7,474 nt of DNA. Source: Candidatus Desantisiibacteriota bacterium (GTDB lineage Bacteria; JACRDZ01). Position numbers and translations under genes: made by a program. Shown one piece after another: positions 707-7,474 of this stretch (the stretch's first letter is position 1; each line of letters opens with the position of its first letter). The DNA lies in contig JACQWU010000080.1 of NCBI GenBank assembly GCA_016209155.1, forward strand, positions 1-7,474, read 5' to 3'. A model generated the notes under the pieces. It saw nothing but the letters and a program-made list of their open reading frames with translations, made no database searches and was not told where the DNA came from.

Positions 707-1882
707 TTATATATCCCAGTCTTTTTCTCTTGAATATCCTTTAGACTTTACCCCCGTAAGATCCCCTATTGAATCAACATCAGGATCACCCTGCTCATTT
801 TTAATCAATATCAATCCATCACCTGTATATACTGCTTCAGAAACTTCAAGCAAAGTATTTTTCCAGTCTGATTCGGAAACTTTTTTTCCGCATTCTTTGC
901 ATTTTTTATCTTTGTTCTCAGTATCATTTATTATATACATATTATATTTTCTGGTTCGCATCTCTTCCTGAAATTCATTTCTGCAATTTGTTATTAAATA
1001 ATTTGCTTGAATGTTATTAAGCTGATTGGACAGGCACTGATGGTAGGACAAACGCTGTTGGTAGGACAGGCGTCCCGCCTGTTCATTAAAATTGCTGCTG
1101 TCAAATTCCTGTGGAAGATAAACCAATACTCTTTTTAATTCTGCATTAATGTTATTATCTACGGTAAGTAATAATTTTGGCTGAGGTGTAAGTATTACTT
1201 GATTAGAATAATTGCTTTCATTTCCCGCTTTATCAAGTACCGTAACAACATAATTGTATGTAGTGTAATTCTCTACGCCTGTATCATAATAATATGTATT
1301 TGTAATTAATTCCGTATTTATCTTCTGACTTCTGACTTCTGAATTCTGCCTTCTATATACATTATATCCCGCTAAATCTGAACTATCCGCGCCAGGCCAA
1401 TAAATAAAACACTCTTCATCATCTTCCTCACCATTAAGACTTGTTATAGCCTGCGGTGGAGTAGAATCTACTTTAATCACCTGTATATTTGCAAGATATC
1501 CACTTTCTCCATTACTTGTGAAACTTACTGCTGTAATTTTATTCGTACCTTCAACTAATTCTAATCTGTATTCAAAGTATCCATGTGAGTCTGAATAAGC
1601 TATCCCAGCAAGAGCAGAATCACGATAAATTTTTACTATACTGTATGGATCAGCATATCCATGAATATCAATATATTTTTGATTAACAACTTCTGCCAGA
1701 GTTTCTATATCCGGCGCTCGCGGTATGGGAATTCCTTTTTTCCAGATATTATTATCTTCGCTATATTCTCTAATCAAATTTTCAGGATCAACACTGATTT
1801 GCAATTGCATTTCTGTATTGGATTGATTTGTATTGTATTGATTTGTAGGGGCTTGATTCATCAAGCCCGCCATCATCTCCAA
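707..1882 (-). CDS. Middle fragment of the same protein: CARDB C-terminus, Ig-like, FN3 and start of a GATase/ThuA-like domain
   Basis: This fragment lies in the +1 frame relative to the upstream one and overlaps its end. The frame is open only from 1906. Possible starts are TTG 1882, ATG 1876/1873 and ATG 1861. GGAG at 1880-1877 abuts ATG 1876, so no start is well spaced, and independent initiation is doubtful. Residues 27-45 (LQISVDPENLIREYSEDNN) are the closing strand typical of a CARDB domain whose beginning is in the upstream frame. Residues 57-140 look like a bacterial Ig-like domain (IDIHGYADPYSIVKIY ... EGTNKITAVS). Residues 141-232 are FN3 (TPPQAITSLN, DLAGYNVYR, YVVTVLDKAGNES). Residues 249-391 begin an alpha/beta domain (KRVLVYLP, EEMRTRKYNMYIIND, EAVYTGDGLILIKN). 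A short CKEC motif sits at 328-331. Heptamer-encoded residues 177-187 and an 18-base tandem repeat at residues 271-288 interrupt the FN3 and alpha/beta domains. Confidence 0.8.
   Translation of the reverse strand: MEMMAGLMNQAPTNQYNTNQSNTEMQLQISVDPENLIREYSEDNNIWKKGIPIPRAPDIETLAEVVNQKYIDIHGYADPYSIVKIYRDSALAGIAYSDSHGYFEYRLELVEGTNKITAVSFTSNGESGYLANIQVIKVDSTPPQAITSLNGEEDDEECFIYWPGADSSDLAGYNVYRRQNSEVRSQKINTELITNTYYYDTGVENYTTYNYVVTVLDKAGNESNYSNQVILTPQPKLLLTVDNNINAELKRVLVYLPQEFDSSNFNEQAGRLSYQQRLSYHQCLSNQLNNIQANYLITNCRNEFQEEMRTRKYNMYIINDTENKDKKCKECGKKVSESDWKNTLLEVSEAVYTGDGLILIKNEQGDPDVDSIGDLTGVKSKGYSREKDWDI
1019..1072 (-). repeat. Three tandem 18-base units encoding RLSYQQ-RLSYHQ-CLSNQL
   Basis: Units at 1055-1072, 1037-1054 and 1019-1036 share the core ctgtcctacca/tcag. 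The third unit is the most diverged. Because 18 is a multiple of three, the array keeps the frame. It appears grown from the GTAGGACAGGCG palindrome, whose left arm is the end of the first unit, and it lengthens the loop between LPQEFDSSNF and NNIQANYLI. Confidence 0.8.
1061..1084 (+). repeat. GTAGGACAGGCG palindromic (REP-like) element
   Basis: After GTA, arms ggacaggcg (1064-1072) and cgcctgttc (1076-1084) pair over nine positions, with one G-T wobble, around loop tcc. It is translated as part of NEQAGRLSYQ in the alpha/beta domain of the middle fragment and overlaps the 18-base tandem repeat. Confidence 0.78.
1322..1354 (-). repeat. Heptanucleotide array A (CAGAAGN family) in the FN3 domain
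   Basis: On the plus strand: three cttctga units, attctgc, then cttct. The coding strand reads as RRQNSEVRSQK, placed right after the conserved GYNVY strand of FN3, where a loop is expected. Confidence 0.85.
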
Positions 1883-4800
1883 ATCTAACCTGAATTCTAT
1901 CTTCCCTTAATTCCTGTACAGACACAAAATTTTGTGTCTCTACTTCTGCTCTTACATTTATCCCCCTCGCCGGCAATTCTCTTTGCTTTTCCACTTCCAC
2001 TTTTATAATCTTGTATCCCTTGCCGTCAGGTGCAATTTCCGTACTTCCAAATTCCACATTTTTAATAACAAGATCAGGTAGTAAAGTCCCATAATCAAAC
2101 CTTATATTCTCTTCACTTTTTAATTCCCCTGCTTTTATTCTTGCTGTTATAACATGCCTGCCCGGTAATATTTGATCAGGCGCAATCATTGTTGTATCAA
2201 CACCTATCCCGTTACTTTCAATCTGCTCCTGTTTTATAATAGTTGAGTCCAATTTAATCTCAAAATCCCCTCGTCCTCCGGACACACCATAAATATAAGC
2301 ATTTAATTTTATTGGTTCGCTGCCGTAAGGATATTCCTCTCTATCAATTTTCATACCGCTTAAGTTTATATTTCCTACTTCTATATTCTCACCACCAATT
2401 AAAAAAGTTTGATTAGTTTCAGGTTCACTAAATCTATAAAACACCTGATGTATGCCTGAATGTAATGTACTAAGTTTTCCTCTAAATTCTATTCTGTTTT
2501 CACCTATATTAAAATTATATTCTCCTGATGTAAGCATTTCATCATCACCAGGAGGATTCTGTATCCAGCTTTTAAATTTTGCTTTTATATTTGCATTACT
2601 TTCAATAAAAAGTACACCTTTTATTTCATCTCCCGGTAAATATTGATAAGTTTCAAAACTTGACTGGTTTATTTCTAATTTTATTCCTGCAACATCATAA
2701 GTGACATTCCCTGTATATTCCTCATTCGTATCTTTTGGCTTAAAACTATATTGCACAGAATATGGGCCGGTCGCAATATTCCATCCCAGTTGTATTCTTT
2801 GTTTTGTCTGACCGCTTTCTATTTCTCCTTTATATATCCAATCGGCAGCGCCTGTAAGAGTTACATTCCCTGGAGTTGTATTTTCAATAGTTACTTCAAC
2901 TGTTTCACCGGGTTTATATACCTGCTTATCAGTATACAAATTAATTATTTCACCGCTTTGTCTAACATAATATTCATTCAAATACACAGACCTGTTTGTA
3001 ACAGCATTATATATTCCTATAAATAATTTCTCACCGGTTACACGAGCAATTGGGAAACTGTATTCGAGAGTTGATTGATCCTGTAAAATAAAATTCTGTT
3101 CCAGCGCTGTTGTATCATATTTTACTCTGCAATATAATGCTATTGCGGGCAAATTATCATTCGTCATATTACTAATATTTAAAGTAAGATTTAGTGTATC
3201 TCCCTGCTTATATCCCTGCTGATTGAACAACGCTTCGACATTAAGTTCCAGTCCTTTCACCGTAAATGGGATACTAACCGGTATTTTTTCCCCTTCAATA
3301 TTAATCTCTGCCTTATAACTTCCATTTATCATATCTGCCGGAACTTTAAAACTTATTGTTTCTTCTTTTTCTTCTCCTGCTATAAGCCAGATTTCTTTTT
3401 TTTCTTGATGGAAAGACGCTATGTCAATAGTCAAGCTTGCTTTTCCAGTTCTATTCCCGATATTTTTAATTTTAATTGCAAGCTGACCTTCTGCGCCGGC
3501 AGTATAGTCTCTCACATCAGTTACAGGTTCAACAGTAAATTTGCATTCACTAATAACAATACTTGTATCATAAACTTTTATAAACCCGCTTCCGGACTCC
3601 ACACTGATTTTTAAAGGATAACTGCCACCCGGTACTGCGGCGGCATTTATCTGGAACGTATAAAACTTCTCCTCACCGCTTACCAGATCAAAATTCCTTC
3701 TATCCTGATAAAACCCGGTATCAATTTCCACCTGCCCGCCAAGAGCATTATACCCCGTATTAATCACTTCAAAATTTACAGGCACAAGCCCATCACTCGT
3801 GCCGCCAATATTAATTTTATCTATTTTTAAATCTTCTTTTGATACAACATCAAAATTCACTTCACTACTATCCATCCCGTATTTTATTTTCACACAATAT
3901 TTTCCGGAATCAATATCCGCCACAAACTGTATATCTTTACTTTGCCCTTTTTCTATATATATTTTTTCTGTATTCTGGCTCCTGTCTTCTGAATTCTGCC
4001 TTCTGACTTCTATTTCCACTTCTCCATCTAAATCCAACTCCCCAATATTATTTATTGTATAGGGTATATTGATCTTCCCTGCAGGATATTTTTCTTCCGG
4101 ATTAATTTTTATTTCAATCCTCTCCCCAAATTTTATTTCTTTTTGAATTGTTCTATTTATTGAGGGATAATCTACACTTGATATTTGATAAGCAATAACC
4201 GTATCACCTTGTATATTCATATTTTTTTTCACTACTACCCATTCTTGCGGATTGATTGTTATTCTCTGTATTTCTTCTTCTGTTATTCTATCTTCTGTCT
4301 TCTGTATTCTGCCTTCAGCCTTCAGCCTTTTGACTTCAGCCTTTATTTCCATCTTCGTCGGATTATACAGTCTCAAAGTTACAGGAAAACTTTTTTCACC
4401 TGCAATAGAAGGTAAGTCAAGTGATGCCTGTATTTCAGGATGAACCACCTCTATATTTCTTACTATTGCCGGATTGGCTGTCGCGCGAAGCTGAAAATTA
4501 GAAGATGCAATAGTACTTGTTTGACATGTGTAACTTGCTCCGGAAGCAAGTATAATATTTTCTGTATATATCTCGTTTTCACCTGAGTATATTCGTATTG
4601 CACCATCATATGTCCCTGCTCCCTTATTTGATAATATTGCCTGAATATTTACAATATCTCCGGGCACATAAATCTCTTTATCTGTTGTTACTTCAAGGCT
4701 GATCCCTGATGTTCCTAAAACTCTTATCTCATCATGGCTCGATTTCAGATTTTGGCCAAGACAGGATATAAGCTTCCCTTCAATAAGATAATTCCCGGGT

Positions 4801-7474
4801 GTTCTTAATTCCCCTAAATTTTGCATCCAGCTTATTTTTTGTCCCGGATCAATTGATAATGTGCTTTCATAAGAAAAAATAGTATTCACTGAACTTGCTC
4901 CGCCAATTTCTCCCCTGTAAAATGAATAACCATTTCCATCCTGCTCGCTCCATACCTGATATAATTTATCACCTACCCATACCATACTTGAGCTTGTAAT
5001 ATTTCGATCAAGGGAGATAGAAGCCGGAGTCTGTGCTGTTCCAGGAACTACATATTTCCATTGGTTTACTGCACCATCTTGTTCATAGTATGCTATAACA
5101 ACCTGTCCATCAGGAAGCTGTACAAGATGTGAATTTTGCCCTTTAATTCCCGTAGTATAAGCAATATTAAATTTATCAAGCAAAGGCAAACTCGAATCAT
5201 TCATCCCCATTCTATAAAATTCCGTCTTTAGTTTTATTCTGCCTTCATCCTTCTGCCTTCTGCCTTCAGAACCTGCCCATTTTATATAAGGCAGTTTATA
5301 CCAATATTTCCCTTTAAGTTCGCCATATCTAAAATTATGTTTACTATTTGCGCCATATTGCGGCCATTCTATATTCTCAGGATCATACCAGGAATTTGTA
5401 TCTACAACATATACTACCGGTTTTAATTCACTGCCTTTAAGACCCATTGCTACTATTTCTAGTTTCCCGTCTCCCTCTAAATCTGTTAAAATTACAGAAT
5501 TCGCCCCATTTAACCCGAAATCAGCATCCAATTCTATTGGAAATCCATTAACTTTTTCGCCTGTGGAATGGTATGCAAATATTCTATTCTTTGTTATAAT
5601 AATTATTTCATTTTCCCCATCGCCATCTATGTCTCCTATGACCGGAGTGGTGAAGCTGTTATTACCCGAATCAGATATAGACGTTGGAAAGTTATATTCT
5701 TTCCCTTCCATACTTATCACTTTTAACCTGCTATATCCTCCATCCCAGAGACAAATTTCTAATTTCCCATCATTATCTATATCCCCCAGGGAAATACTTA
5801 CTCCCCGTAAAACATTTACTAAATCCGTGATTTTATATATGTGCATTATACTGCCGTCATTGTCATAAATTATTATTTCCCGTAAAGGTTTTCCATAAAA
5901 AGGGTTTCCGCCATAATCTGTTGTACTCCGCTCCTGTAACACCACTATTTCCGGCTCAGGATCATCATCCATGTTTCCTATTGCCTGTGAATAATAGTCA
6001 TATCTGGGATATCTTATAATATAGTTATAAGTGTGCGGCCAGCCGGAGATTGGATCGCCATTTTTATTTATCGTTTCAATCCGGTAATCATTGTAAATAG
6101 ATATATCTTCTTTATCATCTTTATTTAAATCCAAAAGCCCAATACCAACTGGAAAATAATCAGAATCAAGATGAGAATAATTATTTATATCATTCCAGTT
6201 AAACCTGTAGCGCATCATCTGTGTTCCATCTATCTTCCATGCCTTTATTTCAGGGTTTGAGGAATAATGTAAAAATTCCATATATATGTATCTGGCAATT
6301 ATCTCAGGTACCCCATCACCATCTATGTCTCCGGTACTTAATGGATTATAATTTATTCTATCATTTGGATCATAATAGTAATCGCAGGTATTTATTGCTT
6401 GCACTCTGCCCTTGTTGTCTGCCATATATAGTCCGCTTGATTTACCTGCCGCTATTGCTTCTTTCCCATCCAGATTGAAATCTTCGAGTACTGTAAAATT
6501 ATTTGCCATCCAATCATATATTTTCTCCGATAGTTTGATTGGAAAATTTTTTACATTTGTACCATCTTTTTCCCATGCATATAAATGACCTTCAGTATTG
6601 AGCAATATCTCATTTTCCCCATCCCCATCAATATCCCCGACTTCCGGATTTGTATTTCCGCCGTTCCGAAATCTTTCATCATTTAATATCTTTGGCCACC
6701 CTTCCCGCACTTTGTATTCCGGCATACTTATTACCGAGTCATACACCTTTTTTCCAACACTAAACCAGTAATTTATCCTTGATGTATTGTAGTGCGAAGC
6801 TTCAGCTTCGCTATAACTGTAGTGCGAGGCACGAGCCTCGCCTGCTATCGGCTCTATCTTCAATATCTGCACCACTCCCGGCAAACTAATTCCCTCTGTC
6901 TCCATCCACCCTTTTTCATATCCAGCCGCAAGCTCTATTCCCCTTCCGACTTCTGTATTTGTTACCCCCTTACTCTTCCCTCTTGCAAGGAGCTCTTCCG
7001 CTTCCAGACTAACCTGCCACATTTCCCGGCTATATCCCGTAGGAGAACTAAAATTCATCTGCCATACAATGTATGACATGTAGTGCGAGGCTTCAGCCTC
7101 GCTTCCTCCGCTTTGTATCCCGCCTTCTCCGCTCTGTATCCCGCCTCCTCCGCCATATACATTCCCAATTGCATAATAGACATTCCTATCCTCCCCAACA
7201 TAGCTAAGCCATATTTCCGTTGCCCGTGATCCGTTTCCCGTTGTCCGTAAAACATCAAAGCTCTCTTTATATCCATAAGGTAGCGGAACTATTTCTTCTC
7301 TTGTAAAGTTATCTTTATTCGATCGATAAGCAATCTCTTTATCCTGCCTGAGGTAAAATATAACTATATCACTGTCATTGCGAGGCGCATCCGAAGCAAG
7401 CTCTATTATCTTCGGCTTTTCCCCAATCCCAATCTTTTTCTCCTCACTCCATATTATCTGATTTCTGTTTTCTG
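1788..7474 (-). CDS. Giant multi-domain surface/secreted protein with FG-GAP propeller and tandem Ig-like/CARDB domains (5' partial)
   Basis: The frame is open from the window edge (first full codon at 7472) to TAG/TGA-free sequence ending at 1790-1788: 1894 residues. The first ATG, at 7079, is not the start: 131 coherent codons precede it, and it directly follows a translated palindromic repeat. Residues below count from that ATG. The upstream part and residues 1-130 look like beta-propeller strands. Residues about 128-586 hold eight FG-GAP/VCBS calcium loops (DIDGDGENEI near 149, DFNLDGKEAI, DIDGDGVPEI, DLNKDDKEDI, NMDDDPEPEI, DIDNDGKLEI, DIDGDGENEI, DLEGDGKLEI), with GWP/GFP strands between them. 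Residues 790-1662 form about nine Ig-like sandwiches, several opening with the TDK.IY.PG pattern. A CARDB domain starts at 1668 (PDLVIKNVEF) but is lost after VRFGDDGG at 1738. Repeat-encoded inserts lie at 80-97, 606-620, 918-935, 1026-1039, 1713-1726 and 1738-1756. Probably extracellular and adhesive; this is inference. No signal peptide or anchor is in view. Confidence 0.88.
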   Translation of the reverse strand, partial: ENRNQIIWSEEKKIGIGEKPKIIELASDAPRNDSDIVIFYLRQDKEIAYRSNKDNFTREEIVPLPYGYKESFDVLRTTGNGSRATEIWLSYVGEDRNVYYAIGNVYGGGGGIQSGEGGIQSGGSEAEASHYMSYIVWQMNFSSPTGYSREMWQVSLEAEELLARGKSKGVTNTEVGRGIELAAGYEKGWMETEGISLPGVVQILKIEPIAGEARASHYSYSEAEASHYNTSRINYWFSVGKKVYDSVISMPEYKVREGWPKILNDERFRNGGNTNPEVGDIDGDGENEILLNTEGHLYAWEKDGTNVKNFPIKLSEKIYDWMANNFTVLEDFNLDGKEAIAAGKSSGLYMADNKGRVQAINTCDYYYDPNDRINYNPLSTGDIDGDGVPEIIARYIYMEFLHYSSNPEIKAWKIDGTQMMRYRFNWNDINNYSHLDSDYFPVGIGLLDLNKDDKEDISIYNDYRIETINKNGDPISGWPHTYNYIIRYPRYDYYSQAIGNMDDDPEPEIVVLQERSTTDYGGNPFYGKPLREIIIYDNDGSIMHIYKITDLVNVLRGVSISLGDIDNDGKLEICLWDGGYSRLKVISMEGKEYNFPTSISDSGNNSFTTPVIGDIDGDGENEIIIITKNRIFAYHSTGEKVNGFPIELDADFGLNGANSVILTDLEGDGKLEIVAMGLKGSELKPVVYVVDTNSWYDPENIEWPQYGANSKHNFRYGELKGKYWYKLPYIKWAGSEGRRQKDEGRIKLKTEFYRMGMNDSSLPLLDKFNIAYTTGIKGQNSHLVQLPDGQVVIAYYEQDGAVNQWKYVVPGTAQTPASISLDRNITSSSMVWVGDKLYQVWSEQDGNGYSFYRGEIGGASSVNTIFSYESTLSIDPGQKISWMQNLGELRTPGNYLIEGKLISCLGQNLKSSHDEIRVLGTSGISLEVTTDKEIYVPGDIVNIQAILSNKGAGTYDGAIRIYSGENEIYTENIILASGASYTCQTSTIASSNFQLRATANPAIVRNIEVVHPEIQASLDLPSIAGEKSFPVTLRLYNPTKMEIKAEVKRLKAEGRIQKTEDRITEEEIQRITINPQEWVVVKKNMNIQGDTVIAYQISSVDYPSINRTIQKEIKFGERIEIKINPEEKYPAGKINIPYTINNIGELDLDGEVEIEVRRQNSEDRSQNTEKIYIEKGQSKDIQFVADIDSGKYCVKIKYGMDSSEVNFDVVSKEDLKIDKINIGGTSDGLVPVNFEVINTGYNALGGQVEIDTGFYQDRRNFDLVSGEEKFYTFQINAAAVPGGSYPLKISVESGSGFIKVYDTSIVISECKFTVEPVTDVRDYTAGAEGQLAIKIKNIGNRTGKASLTIDIASFHQEKKEIWLIAGEEKEETISFKVPADMINGSYKAEINIEGEKIPVSIPFTVKGLELNVEALFNQQGYKQGDTLNLTLNISNMTNDNLPAIALYCRVKYDTTALEQNFILQDQSTLEYSFPIARVTGEKLFIGIYNAVTNRSVYLNEYYVRQSGEIINLYTDKQVYKPGETVEVTIENTTPGNVTLTGAADWIYKGEIESGQTKQRIQLGWNIATGPYSVQYSFKPKDTNEEYTGNVTYDVAGIKLEINQSSFETYQYLPGDEIKGVLFIESNANIKAKFKSWIQNPPGDDEMLTSGEYNFNIGENRIEFRGKLSTLHSGIHQVFYRFSEPETNQTFLIGGENIEVGNINLSGMKIDREEYPYGSEPIKLNAYIYGVSGGRGDFEIKLDSTIIKQEQIESNGIGVDTTMIAPDQILPGRHVITARIKAGELKSEENIRFDYGTLLPDLVIKNVEFGSTEIAPDGKGYKIIKVEVEKQRELPARGINVRAEVETQNFVSVQELREDRIQVRFGDDGGLDESSPYKSIQYKSIQYRNAIANQC
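1815..1844 (-). repeat. Tandem 15-base duplication in the frame overlap
   Basis: Two adjacent 15-base copies, gtattggattgattt (1815-1829) and gtattgtattgattt (1830-1844), differ at one base. They encode YKSIQ-YKSIQ in the upstream frame and NQYNT-NQSNT in the downstream frame, so neither frame contains a stop. They abut the GTAG palindrome. Confidence 0.85.
1845..1868 (+). repeat. GTAG palindromic (REP-like) element at the frameshift junction
   Basis: GTAG is followed by perfect nine-base arms gggcttgat (1849-1857) and atcaagccc (1860-1868) with a two-base loop. It is read as GLDESSPY in the upstream frame and GLMNQAPT in the downstream frame. It lies in the 1906-1790 window where the protein must change frame, directly beside a 15-base tandem duplication. 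Confidence 0.85.
1916..1943 (-). repeat. GTAGAGACAC-type palindrome translated as VETQNFVSV
   Basis: A perfect 20-base palindrome (1920-1939, arms agacacaaaa/ttttgtgtct) is extended by GTA/TAC flanks to 28 bases with one mismatch (C1919/C1940). Read on the minus strand it begins GTAGAGACAC. It encodes roughly VETQNFVSV inside the CARDB domain, between RAEV and the RIQVRFGD strand. It is an in-frame insertion by appearance. Confidence 0.85.
3964..4012 (-). repeat. Heptanucleotide array B (CAGAAGN family)
   Basis: Seven consecutive heptamers (ttttctg, tattctg, gctcctg, tcttctg, aattctg, ccttctg, acttcta). It encodes RRQNSEDRSQNTEK between two strands of an Ig-like domain, in the same heptapeptide register as array A. 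Confidence 0.85.
4276..4339 (-). repeat. Heptanucleotide array C (CAGAAGN family)
   Basis: Clean heptamers run from 4291 to 4339 (tcttctg twice, tattctg, ccttcag twice, ccttttg, acttcag). A more degenerate part lies at 4276-4290, containing one extra base. It encodes EVKRLKAEGRIQKTEDRITE within an Ig-like domain. Confidence 0.83.
5235..5269 (-). repeat. Heptanucleotide array D (CAGAAGN family)
   Basis: Five heptamers (tattctg, ccttcat, ccttctg twice, ccttcag). It encodes EGRRQKDEGRIK in the linker just after the FG-GAP propeller (after LPYIKWAGS). Confidence 0.85.
6789..6812 (+). repeat. GTAG palindromic (REP-like) element, copy c, translated as SEAEASHY
   Basis: Arms gcgaagc (6794-6800) and gcttcgc (6805-6811) around loop ttca, preceded by GTAGT. 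Relative to copy a, both arm differences (A6798 and T6807) fall opposite each other, so the G-C pair becomes A-T and the hairpin is kept. Both changes are also synonymous, so the peptide is again SEAEASHY. Confidence 0.85.
6819..6842 (+). repeat. GTAG palindromic (REP-like) element, copy b, translated as GEARASHY
   Basis: Seven-base arms gcgaggc (6824-6830) and gcctcgc (6835-6841) around loop acga, preceded by GTAGT. It is in the same orientation and same coding phase as copies a and c, six bases from copy c. It encodes GEARASHY between two beta segments of the large protein. Confidence 0.85.
7080..7103 (+). repeat. GTAG palindromic (REP-like) element, copy a, translated as SEAEASHY
   Basis: On the plus strand it reads GTAGT, then arms gcgaggc (7085-7091) and gcctcgc (7096-7102) around loop ttca. 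The 24 bases are eight codons in the frame of the large gene and encode SEAEASHY. The gene's first ATG (7079) follows at once. Two more copies lie at 6819-6842 and 6789-6812. The 5' GTAG plus hairpin layout matches REP elements linked to RAYT (TnpA-REP) transposases; membership in that class is inference. Confidence 0.85.
7104..7154 (-). repeat. Tandem 21-base repeat encoding GGIQSGE/GGIQSGG
   Basis: Two full units (7104-7124 and 7125-7145, differing at two positions) and nine bases of a third. They encode a glycine-rich seven-residue repeat next to palindrome copy a. The alternative frame gives the AGYRAEKAGYKAEEA stretch of a spurious 73-codon ORF. Confidence 0.82.
7216..7250 (-). repeat. 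Heptanucleotide array E, YCCGTTN family
   Basis: Five heptamers: tccgttg, cccgtga, tccgttt, cccgttg, tccgtaa. This is a different unit from the CAGAAGN family but the same period of seven. It is translated in the large frame as LRTTGNGSRATE, between propeller-like strands. Confidence 0.83.
7374..7401 (+). repeat. GTCATTGCGAGG-type dispersed repeat, translated as LASDAPRND
   Basis: The plus strand starts gtcattgcgaggcgc and ends cgaagcaag, with short imperfect ttgc/gcaa ends. The minus strand is read as LASDAPRND in the large frame. Similar GTCATTGCGAG... sequences occur as dispersed repeats in various bacterial genomes. Only one copy is present here, so the call rests on recognition. Confidence 0.5.
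7454..7474 (-). repeat. Heptanucleotide array F, cut by the window edge
   Basis: Three degenerate heptamers (ttatctg, atttctg, ttttctg) of the same family; the array probably continues past 7474. It encodes ENRNQI at the visible start of the large frame. Confidence 0.55.

Follow-up and report, generated by a model that had tools for sequence, protein, structure and literature searches.

The palindromes in the 7474 b stretch of DNA analyzed here (the window) are very probably GTAG-type REPs lying in coding loops, spread by RAYT transposases and kept where the reading frame and the loop tolerate the encoded peptide. These REPs are scattered across the source genome, chiefly in intergenic DNA. 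Ordinary genes are strongly depleted of them, whereas a single family of giant proteins has them concentrated at positions prone to indels. Where they lie in coding sequence, mostly one frame is read, and in-frame copies occur in housekeeping enzymes of other phyla, several of them at positions where a solved homologue is shorter. The window corresponds to an entire contig (G000:C285) from a fragmented, 79%-complete MAG of 3.08 Mb in 352 contigs.

All six palindromes marked in the window by an earlier note are present at 1061–1084, 1845–1868, 1916–1943, 6789–6812, 6819–6842, and 7080–7103, and their assignment to four families is correct (F4 three times; F2, F1, and F5 once each). At a scan threshold of stem ≥7 and G+C ≥3, the window contains six GTAG hairpins, whereas 100 dinucleotide shuffles average 0.1 and never exceed 1. 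The elements carry the GTAG tag and then the palindrome with a 5–13 bp stem that characterize GTAG REPs. The three copies of F4 (GTAGTGCGARGCTTYAGCYTCGC) lie on the plus strand: GTAGTGCGAGGCTTCAGCCTCGC at 7080–7103, with a minus-strand translation of SEAEASHY and exact copies at five other genome sites; the variant GTAGTGCGAGGCACGAGCCTCGC at 6819–6842, translated as GEARASHY; and GTAGTGCGAAGCTTCAGCTTCGC at 6789–6812, again translated as SEAEASHY. The single F2 palindrome (GTAGAGACGCAAAATTTTGCGTCTCTAC; 1916–1943, assigned no strand) has GTAG on the minus strand here and GTAC on the other, and is translated as VETQNFVSV. F1 (GTAGGGGCTTGATTNATCAAGCC) is represented on the plus strand by GTAGGGGCTTGATTCATCAAGCC at 1845–1868, with six exact copies in the genome. 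The F5 element is of the GTAGGWCAGRC type; this plus-strand variant (GTAGGACAGGCGTCCCGCCTGTTC, 1061–1084, reading EQAGRLSY) is the last of a small decayed F5 cluster at 1031–1084.

Other repeats share the minus strand of the window. These are TTCTGNN heptamer arrays at 3979–4017 (reading RRQNSEDRSQNTE), 4290–4333 (reading KRLKAEGRIQKTEDRI; absent from the paralogues C287, C349, and C313) and 5236–5270 (reading SEGRRQKDEGRI), an array of CCGTNNN heptamers at 7217–7251, where an indel occurs, and a dispersed repeat, TTGCGAGG...GAAGCAA, at 7376–7402 (translation ASDAPRND), which has five intergenic copies in the genome sample. A further TTCTGNN array was seen at 1325–1353. Cyanobacterial STRR repeats are likewise tandem heptamers dispersed in a genome; in contrast to these, most TTCTGNN arrays of the genome sample sit within genes, largely those of the giant-protein family (eight intragenic and two intergenic), and CAGAA is always on the coding strand.

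The earlier note had placed all six palindromes in one coding sequence. The window instead contains two minus-strand ORFs in different frames, ORF 1 (1788–7472; 1894 aa, 5′ end cut at the contig edge) and ORF 2 (707–1882). ORF 1 encodes a giant FG-GAP/MG2/A2M bait-region-like protein, with profile matches to FG-GAP, MG2, and the A2M bait region. ORF 2 continues the same gene, as the paralogues C287, C349, and C288 cross the junction in a single open frame; the window copy must therefore have an indel or frameshift near 1870–1905, which is either natural or from assembly. This arrangement also qualifies the claim that every palindrome except the one at 1845 is in frame. The 1845 element is indeed off the usual frame in the tail of ORF 1, but only there; in ORF 2 it is read in its native frame as GLMNQAPT, within MAGLMNQAPT as in C288. 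A decaying pseudogene, in which the REPs are not truly coding, would be compatible with this frameshift and with that of a REP-rich methylase locus on contig C89. We regard this as quite unlikely, since ORF 1 is open over 1894 codons, and REPs are also present in the unbroken ORFs of the paralogues C287 (3520 aa) and C349 (4731 aa). A structure predicted for residues 1000–1250 (AlphaFold without an alignment) was set aside at a pLDDT of 38.

REPs are usually regarded as extragenic regulatory or structural DNA. The proposed count of copies in the source genome found the window palindromes dispersed and mostly intergenic, with 29 sites for F1, 30 for F4, and ~31 loci for F2 in the whole genome, each against 0 for the reversed control (≤3 mismatches). 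A sample of about one-third of the genome yielded 14 copies of F3 and 10 of F5. The genome has six or more GTAG families, of which the window palindromes represent four, and in de novo 16-mer counts these families again ranked with the most frequent repeats. A CRISPR-like repeat, GTCGCGCCCCTTGCGGGCGCGTGGATTGAAAC (16-mer CGCGCCCCTTGCGGGC), was also observed in the genome sample. BIME-like inverted pairs within 60 nt number 20 for F1, 8 for F4, and 3 for F5; F2 forms none with itself. These copy counts rule out that the palindromes occur nowhere else or are ordinary conserved residues. The presence of ETQNFAS in several paralogues is what one would expect of ordinary conserved protein sequence that is palindromic by chance, an explanation whose probability is negligible in view of the shuffled mean of 0.1 and of exact copies scattered through intergenic DNA, for F4 across many phyla. 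Two cruder approaches were abandoned. The rigid pattern GTAG(12)CTAC was uninformative, and tetramer-tag enrichment with loose hairpins raised GTAG only ~3× over most other tags, the signal being drowned by AT-rich stems; copy counts were used instead.

The location of REPs was scored in a 1.08 Mb sample of 120 contigs, partly chosen for REPs or homology, using a simple home-made gene call. In this partly targeted sample the REPs are predominantly extragenic (110 intergenic vs 21 intragenic), and the window copies are the exception. Intergenic DNA (249 kb) accounts for the 110 at 0.44 per kb, while 762 kb of genes <1200 aa contain 8 (0.011 per kb) and 68 kb of genes ≥1200 aa contain 13 (0.19 per kb). 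All 13 of the latter fall within six genes (the window gene, C287, C349, C313, C45, and C196), all of which searches connect with the window gene, and the REP density in this giant FG-GAP/MG2-like family is ~18× that of ordinary genes. Among 74 contigs picked blind to REPs, 25 copies were intergenic vs 3 intragenic.

A search of genome contigs returned no relatives of the long ORF, and 60 related genomes gave only distant matches to it, the best being a 25%-identity stretch and the rest FG-GAP segments. Paralogues from the same genome were therefore used as empty sites and aligned to the window gene at 48–59% identity. Contig C314, searched with its stops masked, had no match in NCBIfam. The F4 element at 7080 faces a gap in the paralogue alignment, appearing as an insertion vs C287 and C349, and is confined to the window gene. 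A loop of variable length houses the F4 pair at 6789/6819 and, in C313, likewise an F4; the window heptamer array at 3979–4017 shares one loop with an F2 REP of C287. Nine long-ORF repeats were tested for their placement (four REPs, four heptamer arrays, and one TTGCGAGG repeat). All nine touch indel columns, where random placement gives 3.6 of nine and never reached nine in 5000 trials. As REPs in one paralogue and heptamer arrays in another fill the same loops, these loops act as safe landing sites. We also observed that C287 (L098) carries PSPQSSPTRGEEGKK where the window (~7230) has the CCGTNNN array and C349 a short loop; this looks like yet another dispersed repeat. The total length of some loops is nearly unchanged (window ~4025, HemW in L248, and MurD in L225), and replacement rather than clean insertion looks likelier there. 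HemW and MurD were rejected as examples of clean insertion, given their little net length change vs PDB entries.

The F2 element at 1916 occupies the same place in C287, C349, and C288, and being common to four paralogues it is probably old. Between C287 and C349 it is alike at 21/21 nt, with flanks at 63–79%, and in the window copy both arms have changed together so that the palindrome is kept. Such similarity beyond the flanks fits either constraint or gene conversion. The latter would belong to a scenario in which the repeats spread within the family by recombination or gene conversion between paralogues and not by transposition into coding DNA, and F4 near 6789, also found at the same place in several paralogues, agrees with it. 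We nonetheless consider this scenario rather improbable: one loop is occupied by F2 in C287 but by heptamers in the window gene, F4 at 7080 is present only in the window gene, and the giant-protein family cannot be the origin of the REPs found in unrelated genes and in other phyla. Constraint, for its part, could mean that intragenic REPs are kept for a purpose, either as a DNA or RNA hairpin (through mRNA stability or by binding gyrase or IHF) or as a peptide useful to this surface-protein family. The conservation of F2 in four diverged paralogues and the compensating arm changes speak for a retained purpose, which we judge to be very unlikely overall, as the same loops hold different repeats, or none, in different paralogues and the same peptide recurs in unrelated housekeeping enzymes. 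Nor do we think that the REP peptides predicted from these ORFs would have a function of their own.

The F4 pattern extends to MAGs from eight or more named phyla or candidate phyla, with Chloroflexi/Dehalococcoidia, Nitrospinota, Zixibacteria, Stahlbacteria, Elusimicrobia, Acidobacteria, Ratteibacteria, Deltaproteobacteria, and others among the matches listed; in the three other genomes of the source phylum no F4 was found. At least 124 F4 copies were recovered, 16 of them inside stop-free frames ≥200 aa, most in Nitrospinota. In that phylum the same REP is in frame in homologues of HypF, GlgB, MurG, MurD, and MTAP. HypF of a Nitrospinae MAG has exactly eight extra residues at SEAKASHY as compared to 3vth, MurG has six extra residues relative to its solved homologue, and in GlgB, MurD, and MTAP the in-frame F4 lies near gaps. 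The Nitrospinae HypF gene (L299, 1396–3789, minus strand) also has SPPFKKGGTGG and PLSPPSKGGERG as extra residues vs 3vth, and these are probably other translated repeats.

The reading frame of intragenic F4 is biased. Counting one case per gene and leaving out three doubtful ORFs, the frame (S/G)EA(E/K)ASHY is used in 11 of 15 cases although four frames are open, with a binomial p of ~1e-4 that is indicative only, as the independence of the cases was judged by eye. It is conceivable, though unlikely, that the REP families have themselves evolved protein compatibility, the hairpin sequence being maintained so that one frame of the 24 nt element gives a harmless hydrophilic octapeptide (8 codons); the element could then live in coding DNA, and even a whole RAYT with its REPs could lie in frame in a host gene. 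Mobile REPs most likely persist in coding DNA only where the loop tolerates the peptide.

Dedicated RAYTs are the most likely agents of REP spread through the genome. Six PF01797 matches were found there, and three of these are RAYT-like genes with GTAG hairpins on both sides. The RAYT of C349 (17.8–18.5 kb) is flanked by pairs of the F4-like GTAGGGCAAGGCTTCAGCCTTGC, which differ by three bases from the window F4. That of C89 is flanked by GTAGGACAGGCATTCCTGCCTGTC pairs of F5, the family of the 1061 element, and that of C106 by GTAGGGAACGGTTTCAAACCGTTCC, a sixth family (F6). Against an NF047646 cut-off of 80 bits, the C349 (97.6) and C89 (88.1) proteins score above, and the C106 protein, whose REP lies inside the domain, scores below at 73.6. 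The other three PF01797 matches are relatives of 330–367 aa around which no flanking REPs were found. The genome thus has the expected RAYT genes with neighbouring GTAG hairpins, for F5 with the same family and for F4 with a three-base variant, while no partner for F1 (1845) or F2 (1916) was found in the 79%-complete assembly. Together with the dispersed copies, the REP-flanked RAYTs support the REP/RAYT reading of the palindromes that the earlier note had put forward.

TnpA-REP enzymes are GTAG-dependent and cut at a CT adjoining the hairpin (PMC8266576), and by analogy the RAYTs of the window genome may cut at a CT beside the hairpin as well. We infer that such a RAYT would cut and transfer the single-stranded hairpin, whose copies would land at many sites. 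Copies within genes would then be lost by purifying selection unless the frame is kept and a tolerated loop peptide is encoded.

Intragenic GTAG REPs were already published in 2013 in BMC Genomics, where Opitutus terrae is the richest and loop tolerance was proposed (PMC3733652), making the idea less new than the earlier note implied. The published elements resemble ours in their GTAG tag, short stem, dispersion, inverted dimers, REPtrons, and the presence of some units in frame in genes. They differ in that a single giant gene family has accumulated four REP families alongside heptamer arrays here, that new lineages are involved, and that the frame bias is measured and the inserted residues are compared with homologues of known structure. 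Beyond the 2013 work, we add the accumulation of multiple repeat families in shared loops of paralogous proteins, a preferred reading frame, the use of solved structures for comparison, and a methylase gene, itself frameshifted, with a RAYT in frame inside it. The proposed analogy with Rickettsia palindromic elements (RPEs) holds in that both are palindromic repeats translated in frame in many genes. The window elements are not RPEs, however; RPEs are CGTC-tagged or longer, whereas the window elements are all GTAG-tagged and their genome contains RAYTs. RPE-4 and RPE-6 have been treated as CGTC REPs, and CGTC families are without transposase gene association (PMC3733652 Table 1). Loops filled repeatedly by REP families and other repeats provide a natural experiment that can show which sites of a protein take up new peptide and in what way short mobile DNA contributes it. 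As F4 occurs in at least eight phyla and in housekeeping enzymes with solved homologues, the cost of each F4 insertion is directly testable.

The RAYTs described here are similar to TnpA-REP/RAYT proteins (NF047646, PMC8266576) in being Y1/HUH proteins with an HxH motif and paired REPs on both sides. Two of them differ in their genomic setting from known RAYTs. On C89, four ORFs of a restriction-methylase locus (L088, 3183–8791, minus strand; Eco57I, N6_Mtase, TaqI_C) contain in-frame F5 REPs. The methylase is also interrupted in frame by a complete RAYT, located between its segments TGSFYTPREIV and DPACGSGAF, and the host gene is frameshifted on both sides. No earlier report of an in-frame RAYT within a host gene was found in the open-access literature. 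On C106 (L089, 8439–9062, minus strand), the RAYT reading frame includes the translation of its own REP (VGNGLVRNGLKPFPT).
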